Below, piece by piece: positions 17,844 through 38,182 of a stretch of 38,182 nt of DNA; the stretch's first letter is position 1; each line of letters opens with the position of its first letter. The DNA comes from Promicromonosporaceae bacterium. GTDB lineage: Bacteria > Actinomycetota > Actinomycetes > Actinomycetales > Cellulomonadaceae. Under the pieces are notes generated by a model, which was given only the letters and a program-made list of their open reading frames with translations, ran no database searches and was not told the DNA's origin. The translations under genes were made by a program, and so were the position numbers. The stretch lies in the NCBI GenBank assembly GCA_009783295.1, contig WRHK01000037.1, positions 1-38,182 of the forward strand, in the 5' to 3' direction.

Positions 17844-17907
17844 CGTTGTGGGTCCCTGGGACTCCGGTCATCGCGGCCGACAACCGGAGTCCCAGGGACC
17901 CACAACG
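17844..17907. terminator. 24-bp perfect hairpin between purQ and the radical SAM gene
   Basis: Bases 17844-17867 and 17884-17907 are exact reverse complements around a 16-base loop. It starts 11 bases after the purQ stop and ends just before the TAG of the convergent radical SAM gene (17909-17911). The arm contains GGTCCCTGGGACTCCGG. The length and perfection exceed a usual terminator, so it might also be a mobile REP-like element. Confidence 0.8.
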
Positions 17908-17908
17908 T

Positions 17909-19039
17909 CTAGTGGGCGTGGTGGCGTGAGCCCGGGACGTACGGGCACAGCGGGTCCGACTCCAGCGGGTCGCCCGTGTGGGCGTACGCCCGCGCGCGGC
18001 TTCCGCCGCACCACAGGTGGTACTCGCAGTCGCCGCAGCGGCCCTTGAAGCCCTCCGGGTCGCGCAGGGCGCGCATCGTCGGGTGGTCCCGGTAGAGGTC
18101 CACGAGCGGCGTCGTGAGCACGTTGCCCACCGGCAGCGGCAGGAACCCCGACGGCGTCACGTCGCCCGTGTGCGACACGAACACGATGCCGTTGCCGTCG
18201 CGGATGCCGAACCCGCGCGCGAACGGCATCGCCTCGATCTCCTCCGCCGACCTCCCGGCCTTCTCCATCCGCGCCGCCGCGATGCGCCGGTAGTGCGTCG
18301 CCTCGGTGGTGCGCACCATGAACGGCGCCTCCCGGCTGATCCCGCCCAGCCAGCGCATGAGCTTCTCCGCGTCGCCGGGCGTCGGCTCGGTGAGCTGCGT
18401 GCCGCGGCCCGTCGAGATGAGGAAGAACAGGCTCCACGTCATCAGGGTGCGCGTGCGCAGCAGCTCGTAGACGGCGGGCATGTCGGGCAGCGTGTCGGCC
18501 GTGACCAGCGTGTTCACCTGCACTGGCACGCCGACGTCGGCGGCCATGTCGAGTGCGGCCATCGTCGCGTCGAACGTGCCCGGCACCTGCCGGACGCCGT
18601 CGTGCAGCGCCGACGTCGACCCGTCCAGGCTCAGCGAGATCGCCTGGACCCCGGCGTCGCGCAGCACCTCCAGGCGGTTGCGGCTCAGCAGCGGCGTGAC
18701 GGCCGGGGCGAGCGAGACGCCGATGCCGCGCTCGTGGGCGGCCGCGATGAGGTCGTCAAGGTCGATGCGACGCAGCGGGTCGCCGCCCGTCATCACGACG
18801 TGGGGCAGCGGGTCGCCGAACTGCGTGATCTGGTCGAGCACGCCGATCGCCTGGCGGGTGGTCAGCTCGCCCGGCGCGGGCTGGCGCACGGCCTCCGCGC
18901 GGCAGTGACGGCACGCGAGCCCGCACGCCGTCGTCAGCTCCCAGTACACGATCATCGGCGCGCGCTGGTAGGCGAACCCCTCGTGGCGGACGGCGCCGAT
19001 CGCCGTCGGGGTCGAGGGGTGCGGCGGTGCGATGGTCAT
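17909..19039 (-). CDS. Radical SAM/SPASM domain protein
   Basis: A 376-residue radical SAM enzyme. The cluster-binding motif is CGLACRHC (Cys39, Cys43, Cys46), followed by the SAM-contact VMTGGDPLRR near 97-106 and SLSLDGSTSALHD near 147-159. The C-terminal SPASM region has CGDCEYHLWCGG and a last Cys in SDPLCPYVP, enough ligands for an auxiliary Fe-S cluster. The overall pattern, including WSLFFLISTGRG and FMVRTTEATHYRR, resembles the family I recall as TIGR04053 (heme-related AhbC/AhbD-like group), but I cannot confirm this. The substrate is unknown and no precursor peptide gene is seen nearby. ATG 19039 follows AAGGAG. TAGCCT (19074-19069, minus) could be its -10. Confidence 0.88.
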   Translation of the reverse strand: MTIAPPHPSTPTAIGAVRHEGFAYQRAPMIVYWELTTACGLACRHCRAEAVRQPAPGELTTRQAIGVLDQITQFGDPLPHVVMTGGDPLRRIDLDDLIAAAHERGIGVSLAPAVTPLLSRNRLEVLRDAGVQAISLSLDGSTSALHDGVRQVPGTFDATMAALDMAADVGVPVQVNTLVTADTLPDMPAVYELLRTRTLMTWSLFFLISTGRGTQLTEPTPGDAEKLMRWLGGISREAPFMVRTTEATHYRRIAAARMEKAGRSAEEIEAMPFARGFGIRDGNGIVFVSHTGDVTPSGFLPLPVGNVLTTPLVDLYRDHPTMRALRDPEGFKGRCGDCEYHLWCGGSRARAYAHTGDPLESDPLCPYVPGSRHHAH

Positions 19040-19152
19040 CGGCCGGCTCCTTGGTCGGGGTGCCACCGAGGCTAGCCACGGGCCGCGCCGCGGGGCTCGG
19101 GCCGTGCGCTGGGCGATCGGTCGGGCCGCCGGTCGGGGTGTCCGGTGTGGCG

Positions 19153-19587
19153 TCAGGCGCGGGGGAGGGGCCCGTCGAGCACGCGGGCGCGGTACGCCTC
19201 GGGCGTCAGCCCGGTGGCCTTGACGACCGCCCGGTGCAGCGCGGAGGCGGACGCGTACCCGGCCAGCGTGGCGACGTCGTCGACCGGGCGGTGCGCCAGG
19301 CGCGGGTCGCGCAGCAGGCCGAGCGCGAGGTCCAGGTGGGCGTGCGCGATGTGGCACGTCACGCTCATGGGGCCGTGCTCGAACAGGCGGTTCAGCGTGC
19401 GCAACGAGATGCCCTGGTCCGCGGCCAGACGCGCGGGCGTGAGCTCCGGGTCGTGGGCCTGGGCCGCGATGTCGGCGACGACGCGCGCCCGCAGCTCGGT
19501 GTGCGAGCGGTCGAGCAGCGGCGGACGGTGCCGGCCGAGCGCAGCAAACGGCCTCGACGGGAGTCTGAAGGCGACCTGCGCTGGCAT
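19153..19587 (-). CDS. Short AraC-family transcription regulator
   Basis: A 144-residue protein that is essentially only the C-terminal AraC DNA-binding domain. The first helix-turn-helix is LTPARLAADQGISLRTLNRL (about residues 49-68). The second is DVATLAGYASASALHRAV (about 103-120), followed by the conserved LTPEAYRAR. About 40 Arg/Pro-rich residues precede it instead of a ligand-binding domain. No in-frame extension with ATG or GTG is evident. It could be naturally short or the remnant of a longer gene. It lies upstream of the radical SAM gene on the same strand, 113 bases away. A regulatory link is possible but unproven. Confidence 0.8.
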   Translation of the reverse strand: MPAQVAFRLPSRPFAALGRHRPPLLDRSHTELRARVVADIAAQAHDPELTPARLAADQGISLRTLNRLFEHGPMSVTCHIAHAHLDLALGLLRDPRLAHRPVDDVATLAGYASASALHRAVVKATGLTPEAYRARVLDGPLPRA

Positions 19588-36708: not shown

Positions 36709-37228
36709 ATGACTGCCGCCTCCGCCGCCCGCCCGACGCTCGACACAGTCGAGAACGCCGCAGCCACCCCGGACGAGGTGCAGCCGTACGCGGAGCTCGG
36801 CCTCAAGCCGGACGAGTACCAGCGCATCCGCGACATCCTGGGCCGCCGCCCCACCGCGGCCGAGCTCGCGATGTACTCGGTCATGTGGTCGGAGCACTGC
36901 TCCTACAAGTCCTCCAAGGTGCATCTGCGCAAGTTCGGCGAGCGCGTCACCGAGGACATGAAGAAGCACCTCCTCGTGGGCATCGGCGAGAACGCCGGCG
37001 TCGTCGACATCGGCGACGGCTGGGCCGTCACGTTCAAGGTCGAGTCGCACAACCACCCGTCGTTCGTCGAGCCGTACCAGGGTGCCGCGACCGGCGTCGG
37101 CGGCATCGTGCGCGACATCATCTCGATGGGCGCCCGCCCGGTGGCCGTCATGGACCAGCTCCGCTTCGGCGACGTCGACCACCCCGACACCGCCCGGGTG
37201 GTGCACGGCGTCGTGAGCGGCGTCGGCG
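36709..37228 (+). CDS. purL: FGAM synthase PurL, N-terminal fragment cut by the join
   Basis: The first 173 residues of the large FGAM synthase subunit, about a quarter of the usual 740-770. Characteristic segments are [18 protein letters not shown] near residues 58-75, [20 protein letters not shown] near 95-114 with the ATP and metal region, and [35 protein letters not shown] follows. It proceeds normally to VHGVVSGVG, where PurL proteins continue GYGNC. Here it instead becomes [12 protein letters not shown] and stays open to 37512 in foreign sequence. ATG 36709 follows GAGGGAGC. With purS and purQ it would complete FGAM synthase. The remainder of the gene is missing from the window, most likely through misassembly rather than mutation. 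Confidence 0.95.
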
Positions 37229-37231
37229 CGG
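37225..37231. other. Probable chimeric join between two genomes
   Basis: Up to about 37,228 the sequence is high-GC actinobacterial purL. From about 37,229 it belongs to an unrelated gene. Base composition drops from roughly 73% to about 58% G+C by eye, and A/T-ending codons (ATA, TTT, TTA, GAT) become common at once. The reading frame is kept by chance. Confidence 0.88.
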
Positions 37232-37512
37232 ATAAGCGGGGCGCGAGGTACGAGCGCCATCCGCAGACCGGCGCTCACATCAGGGGGGCAATCATACCCT
37301 TCTGGCGGGAGGCGCTGAGCATGTGCGAGGAGGCCGCGTCGGTCGTGCCCCAGGTGCGCTATGTGGCGTGGGATGTCGCGATAACCCCTTCCGGTCCCGT
37401 GTTTATCGAGGGCAACAGTTTTCCCAGCCACGCGATACCGCAGTTCGCCGCTCATTTCCCGGATGGGATAGGCATACTGCCGCGCTACAAGGAGTTTATC
37501 GATCTAAAATAA
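37229..37512 (+). CDS. C-terminal fragment of an ATP-grasp-like protein (foreign)
   Basis: About 94 residues that form the end of a protein unrelated to PurL. The stretch [19 protein letters not shown] followed by [11 protein letters not shown] has the metal-binding Asp and Glu-x-Asn pattern of ATP-grasp enzymes. It resembles the sugar-transfer-associated ATP-grasp domain seen in surface-polysaccharide loci. The start of the gene is absent. The TAA stop at 37510-37512 and codons such as ATA and TTT are unlike the rest of the window. It is followed after 80 bases by nagB in the same direction, so the two could be neighbours in the donor genome. Confidence 0.7.
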
Positions 37513-37592
37513 TAAAGCTTTGCCGGGCGCGCCCGGTTAACGCGATAATTGCCGGTAAAGCGCTGCGCTTATCGGCGCAAGGAGGCTGTGAA
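37513..37592. other. Foreign intergenic gap with a 14-base palindrome
   Basis: CCGGGCGCGCCCGG (37523-37536) is a perfect palindrome, perhaps part of a weak terminator of the ATP-grasp-like gene. The AAGGAGG ribosome site of nagB is at 37579-37585. Confidence 0.45.
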
Positions 37593-38182
37593 ATGAAGAT
37601 CATCGTACGAAATACGGCGAAGGAGGCCGCGGCGACCGCCGCCGCCATCGTCTGCGCGCAGCTGACGCGCAAGCCGGATAGCGTACTCGGCCTGCCTACC
37701 GGCTCAACGCCCGTTGCCTTATACGCCGCGCTGATAAGCATGTATGAGGAGGGCCTCATCGATTTTTCAGAGGCGACGTGCTTTAACCTTGATGAGTACA
37801 TGGGCGTCGCCGCCGATCATCCGGCGAGTTATCGCAGGTTCATGCACGACCGCTTGTTCGCGCGCGTCAACGCCGAGCCCGCGAGGCTGCACATACCGGA
37901 CGGCATGGCGGCTGATCCGCAGGCGGAATGCGCGCGTTACGAGCAGGCCGTGACGAACGCTGGCGGCATTGATTTGATGATACTCGGCATCGGTCTGAAC
38001 GGGCACATCGGGTTTAACGAGCCTTCCGATACGTTCGCGATGCGCACGCACCTCGCGGTCCTGTCGGAAGCCACGCTGCGCTCGAACAAGCGCGATTTCA
38101 GCGCGGGCGAAGCGGTTCCGCTCCGGGCCTACACGATGGGCGTGGGCACGATTTTCCGCGCAAGGGAGATCATGCTGCTCGC
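37593..38182 (+). CDS. nagB: Glucosamine-6-phosphate deaminase, 3' end missing (foreign)
   Basis: The first 196 residues of NagB (usual length 240-270), open to the end of the window. It converts glucosamine 6-phosphate to fructose 6-phosphate and ammonia. Motifs are LGLPTGSTP at 32-40 (phosphate loop), FNLDEYMG at 64-71 with the catalytic Asp67, and GIGLNGHIGFNEPS at 132-145 with His138 and Glu143. The later VPLRAYTMGVGTIFRA is also typical. Asn136 stands where E. coli has Asp141, as in Gram-positive NagB proteins. ATG 37593 has a perfect AAGGAGG at seven bases. Composition and codon use match the preceding fragment, not the actinomycete. It probably comes from a mid-GC Firmicute-like genome. 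Confidence 0.93.
   Translation, partial: MKIIVRNTAKEAAATAAAIVCAQLTRKPDSVLGLPTGSTPVALYAALISMYEEGLIDFSEATCFNLDEYMGVAADHPASYRRFMHDRLFARVNAEPARLHIPDGMAADPQAECARYEQAVTNAGGIDLMILGIGLNGHIGFNEPSDTFAMRTHLAVLSEATLRSNKRDFSAGEAVPLRAYTMGVGTIFRAREIMLL

Follow-up and report, generated by a model that had tools for sequence, protein, structure and literature searches.

A contig end that is almost certainly misjoined

The end of contig C37 is almost certainly an assembly chimera: at 37,227/37,228 the host purL gene appears to have been misjoined to DNA of another lineage, and we infer from the sequences meeting there a fault of assembly rather than an event of biology. The window (the whole stretch of DNA analysed, 38,182 nucleotides) is the entire contig C37 of a high-G+C assembly of 3.98 Mb in 119 contigs, rated at 99.98% completeness and 2.11% contamination. 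Since the last ~950 bases of C37 look like DNA of an unrelated bacterium misjoined to purL, the 267-residue PurL/ATP-grasp "fusion" encoded across the join is no real feature, and gene annotation should leave it out. The parts of the contig end are as follows.

36709..37227, + strand: 5' part (173 codons) of host purL, phosphoribosylformylglycinamidine synthase subunit PurL (NCBIfam PRK01213/TIGR01736 to residue 173; DNA identity to the genus)
37227..37228, no strand: chimeric join, almost certainly (purL match ends here in relatives; composition switch)
37228..37512, + strand: foreign fragment of a sugar-transfer-associated ATP-grasp gene: its C-terminal quarter to third (94 aa and a stop codon), 5' part absent (PF14397, E 1e-20, profile positions 192-274 of 278; relatedness to a Clostridiales protein)
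37593..38182, + strand: 5' part of nagB (glucosamine-6-phosphate deaminase), foreign, cut at the contig end (TIGR00502/PRK00443; NagB relatives)

The homology break within purL

The open reading frame at 36709-37512 begins with ATG, encodes 267 aa, and reads as PurL as far as VSGVG, the final PurL codon ending at 37,227. Pfam placed an FGAR-AT linker at residues 24-67, an AIRS domain at 93-170 and PF14397 at 171-261, and the NCBIfam PurL models stopped at residue 173. Residues 32-173 correspond to positions 1-137 of PurL models TIGR01736/PRK01213, but relative to the full model length of 718-723 the frame lacks about four fifths, and its score is below the cut-off. Likewise the C-terminal end of the sugar-transfer-associated ATP-grasp domain PF14397 is present in the tail, but its first two thirds are missing. 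When the frame was tested as a fusion protein, both partners proved to have incomplete domains, AIRS at profile positions 1-80 of 112 and ATPgrasp_ST at 187-274 of 278 only.

The end of the window was used to search 38 relatives at the DNA level; a purL match was present in 31 and absent from 7. This match ended at 37,228 in 25 relatives, 37,226 in four, 37,214 in one and 37,233 in one. The overrun past the join is 5 bases in the last of these and 2–4 bases in a few other, weak matches. A separate 36-base match elsewhere in the G034 genome (query 510-545, E 3.5e-4) crosses the join, at chance level. In none of the 31 relatives with a purL match did it continue into the tail, and the same PurL/ATP-grasp junction was not found in any of the 38, where the remaining matches to the tail were short and weak, nagB giving the strongest. 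The join was placed at 37,227/37,228 because base 37,228 is likewise compatible with purL. The purL part itself shares 90–92% DNA identity with five same-genus genomes and 83% and 77% with two more of the genus; it is also 92% identical to G013, a genome of another genus.

The open reading frame, the Pfam and NCBIfam profiles and the match ends in relatives thus agree with an earlier note, made from the sequence alone, that PurL is normal to VSGVG and then becomes the tail of another protein. That note's observation that both partners are broken stands as well, purL lacking its 3' end and the ATP-grasp gene its 5' part.

Gene order upstream of the join

Before the join, C37 carries fba, purA, purD, purC, purS and purQ, then the first 519 bases of purL. 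Four same-genus genomes share this gene order largely, with some insertions and unmatched stretches, and in all four the locus is continuous, running from purL to a PHB-depolymerase-type esterase gene to icd. A second DNA-level copy of the window's fba, purA, purD or purC was not found when the assembly was searched.

These results bear on the idea that all of C37 is a contaminant, with its end the natural sequence of some other organism. The assembly does contain two purL starts, as that would predict. But the window and the four same-genus genomes are largely collinear as far as 37,228, the purine genes of the window occur only once in the assembly, and purL never runs on into the tail among the 31 relatives with a match. 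We rejected C37 as a whole-contig contaminant on its single-copy purine genes and shared gene order, and consider the idea exceedingly improbable.

Some repeats were noted in the window. An inverted repeat rich in C-runs and G-runs lies at 18-110, at the other end of the contig, with an opposite-strand self match of 79%; it may be the reason the contig starts there. A repeat of ~64 bases at 17844-17907, probably an intergenic palindromic element, recurs in either orientation across many of the genome's contigs at 80–92% identity. Window positions 17924-19062 match positions 8,299-9,438 of contig C95 of the same genome at 79% DNA identity, by which the C95 segment is a related copy of the window gene at 17909-19357.

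Composition across the join

Third-position G+C was 0.971 in the purL part and 0.949–0.977 in six other window genes, falling to 0.755 in the ATP-grasp tail and 0.796 in nagB. Codons rare in the host numbered 3 of 173 in the purL part, 21 of 94 in the ATP-grasp tail and 41 of 196 in nagB. Overall G+C in the host part of the window is ~67–79%, taken in 500-base steps. A fourth-order Markov score trained on host DNA had a window mean of 0.27, a standard deviation of 0.05 and a minimum of 0.15; the two halves of the tail scored -0.15 and -0.02, values near the latter also being seen elsewhere in the assembly, and the drop was located at the join. A change of G+C and codon use at the join had been claimed beforehand, and these measures bear it out: third-position G+C goes from ~0.97 to 0.76–0.80, rare codons rise and the Markov score declines.

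Origin of the tail

The ATP-grasp fragment was used as a protein query against genomes chosen for their NagB (46 of the 80 nagB loci described below) plus the host. It matched nine of the 47 genomes, one match being the host's own C37. The best was a G077 protein (Clostridiales, 375-aa frame) at 64% identity, and seven other genomes gave 31–50%. Seven of the homologues sit in frames of 341–375 aa, whose C-terminal end aligns with the fragment. Against the 80 nagB loci the fragment gave no E-value under 0.08, and the two genes were not found adjacent there.

The tail nagB is cut at residue 196 of ~260. Its residues 1-196 correspond to positions 1-202 of 259 in the NagB model TIGR00502, but the gene ends with the contig, and it scores 217.5 bits against a cut-off of 236.9. 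The host's own NagB is intact (260 aa, on contig C1, above the curated cut-off) and shares 43% identity with the tail protein. Among the best 80 of at least 590 loci, identities to the tail NagB were 45–54%, and 60 of these 80 are from Bacillota; the top E-value belonged to an Eggerthellaceae record (48%), the top identity, 54%, to the Clostridiales record L092, whose genome is G077. A tree of 82 NagB rows (60 Bacillota, 8 Pseudomonadota, 3 Actinomycetota, 3 Verrucomicrobiota, 4 with other labels and 4 without a group) left the window protein in an open group outside any supported clade, bootstrap values being unsettled.

At the DNA level, the tail matched 70 of 396 genomes of the order of G077, the best stretch being 82% over 165 bases in the ATP-grasp part. 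Both tail genes were matched as a single block by no genome among the matches listed for these 396.

Relatives of the tail thus lie mainly in Bacillota, chiefly Clostridia. The donor would be Clostridia-like, an uncertain assignment given the top E-value of Eggerthellaceae and the unplaced position in the tree, and it may lie outside Clostridia. As judged by these comparisons, the two sides of the join belong to different lineages, purL resembling the host genus and family, the ATP-grasp and NagB parts mainly Clostridia/Bacillota. The tail had been called foreign and unrelated to purL, and the recommended search of it against genomes upholds this, with relatives mainly in another phylum; the exact donor was not found.

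The second purL on contig C42

The recommended look for an intact purL start and end in the same assembly turned up a complete gene that is itself probably misjoined. An intact PurL query hit two places only: the C37 fragment and contig C42, which encodes a PurL of 764 aa, full model length, that scores above the curated cut-off. The purL starts of C37 and C42 are 85% identical. Downstream, C42 carries the purL 3' part, a PHB-depolymerase-type esterase gene and icd, as in four same-genus genomes, and an assembly search (for icd, at the DNA level) found no copy of the purL 3' part or of icd other than that on C42. A repeat of ~120 bases at ~6,980-7,120 of C42 matches contigs C2, C5, C19 and C26 at 76–83%, and relatives give only weak matches of 70–72%.

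In a scan along its purL, C42 was unusually divergent over the first ~786 bases and typical of the genus beyond that point. Of the sites at which four genus members are identical, C42 alone differed at 61 of 666 ahead of position 786 and at 30 of 1170 past it; beyond ~786 its match to the genus consensus (96–98% of sites) was about that of the genus members themselves. Third-position G+C along the gene was 0.867, 0.921 and 0.976 in turn, and the first part in five genus members was at 0.948–0.983. None of 2000 shuffles, applied to C42 only and not to the controls, gave a change-point as strong. The change-point score was 18.7 for C42 and 3.1–15.5 for eight control genes, which came from the four genus members and four outgroups (G013, G020, G017, G023); in this alignment the purL of G004 and of the outgroups stops at the end of the fetched locus. 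All eight controls were more divergent toward the 3' end, the reverse of C42.

On this evidence C42 is likely a second misjoin, in which the start of another bacterium's purL, with the likewise unusually divergent genes ahead of it (C42 1 to ~3,985, with the join near purL position 786), would have been attached to the end of the host's. The genus-type 3' part of C42 from ~786 on would then be the continuation of the host purL; the stretch from ~520 to 786 is absent from both pieces.

A rival account of C42 alone, under which the C37 tail is still a misjoin, is that the contig belongs wholly to a related species, or is a fast-evolving region, and that the host purL 3' end was left unassembled. 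The divergence of C42 fits this: genes at its start are 67–74% identical to the genus, against 75–82% for the window's copies, and there is the 85% identity between the two purL 5' parts. Rate variation alone, moreover, gave control change-points up to 15.5. Weighing against it are the single copy of purL 3' and icd in the assembly, the genus-like consensus agreement after ~786, and a direction of rate change opposite to that of all eight controls. Identity of the C42 icd is 87–90% with five genomes of the genus and does not exceed 83% with the other-genus genomes listed; over the icd region, four more genomes placed in the genus gave only 65–74%. In a family-wide search the first 3,950 bases of C42 showed 85–87% identity to five genus members and 86–87% to the best of two other genera, and because the C37 purL part likewise reaches 92% to another genus, the genus comparison does not discriminate for C42. 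The control change-points and this undiscriminating comparison led us to raise our estimate for a plain contaminant at C42 somewhat, from a low chance to one we still call rather unlikely.

Could the C37 junction be real?

Two points count to a degree against a misjoin on C37: the assembly's ratings of 99.98% completeness and 2.11% contamination, and the complete purL on C42, given which a cell could survive with the C37 copy truncated. A real horizontal insertion or rearrangement could have struck this purL copy and been tolerated through the complete gene in the same cell; the intact 764-aa product, above its curated cut-off, and the open fusion frame both suit such an event. The foreign stretch, however, begins inside one gene, breaks off inside another and reaches the contig end, the locus is continuous in four same-genus genomes, and the genus-type 3' and unusually divergent 5' parts of C42 make the C37 5' and C42 3' pieces look like one host gene. 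Mobile-element families were searched for in the two tail frames, and in these two only, with NCBIfam and Pfam profiles; there was no match, so we thought a mobile-element insertion unlikely. A similar foreign end on contig C31 (below) speaks the same way. For a real insertion, purL would have to be duplicated, the invading DNA would have to have left no recognised mobile gene behind, and the other copy would have to be odd for unrelated reasons; we regard this as very improbable. A biological junction in its full form, in which a strain with two purL loci had one invaded by Clostridia-like DNA and expressed a 267-residue hybrid, seems extremely improbable.

The misjoin reading, as originally proposed, is supported by the exact homology break, the cutting of both partners mid-gene, the composition switch and the other-phylum relatives, and further by the place of the tail at the extreme contig end, the host's own nagB elsewhere and the rest of purL on another contig.

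Other contig ends

We surveyed composition at 40 ends, 2.5 kb each, of 20 other contigs between C30 and C51. Foreign-looking composition was found at one, the end of C31; the starts of C30, C39 and C49 had low-normal scores. Rfam searches of these four ends gave one tRNA and no ribosomal RNA. On C31, a DNA match to G028 stops at 41,901, inside a glycosyltransferase-like frame (its Pfam score just below the cut-off), and the host side of this join is shared with only one of 13 relatives, G028. Past it lie ~3.2 kb (~41,901-45,109; L191 15902-19110) containing an autotransporter beta-domain gene and a YdjC-like gene, with 60–62% G+C at ~43,000-44,500. Autotransporters are of Gram-negative outer-membrane type. 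The C31 end is a probable second foreign contig end in this assembly, on the end of the G028 match, composition and gene content.

Proposed course of the misassembly

The host chromosome, that of an actinobacterium, would have been read correctly to purL base 519. There the assembler, whose input was probably a mixed sample (we infer a metagenomic origin), would have stepped onto unrelated Clostridia-like sequence. From a point inside the donor's ATP-grasp gene it would have continued as far as the donor's nagB, in which the contig stops. C42 would carry what is left of the host purL together with the esterase gene and icd; it would be misjoined within purL, at its 5' side, to a related bacterium, and ~265 bases of host purL (positions ~520–786) would be missing. 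One cause would suffice, the assembly having broken in conserved purL and then made wrong joins on C37 and C42, with a similar fault on C31.

Misassembly into chimeric contigs is a known error, described as relatively rare in the GUNC paper (PMC8201837). Such rarity lowers the prior for a misassembly, but does not outweigh the evidence here. As in the metagenomic chimeric contigs treated in that paper (PMC8201837), unrelated lineages meet in one contig, and marker-gene estimates, 2.11% in this assembly, do not reveal the chimerism. Nothing essential distinguishes the present case, in which two contigs are broken in the same conserved gene, purL.

Significance

The significance of the finding is that of a data-quality flag only. 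Left in place, the join would put the 267-residue frame into databases as a novel fusion protein, give the host a spurious second nagB in gene counts, and make it seem to have two purL genes, one of them broken. Further wrong joins are probable in the assembly, on C31 and C42, and claims about the gene content of this organism, or about gene transfer into it, call for care.
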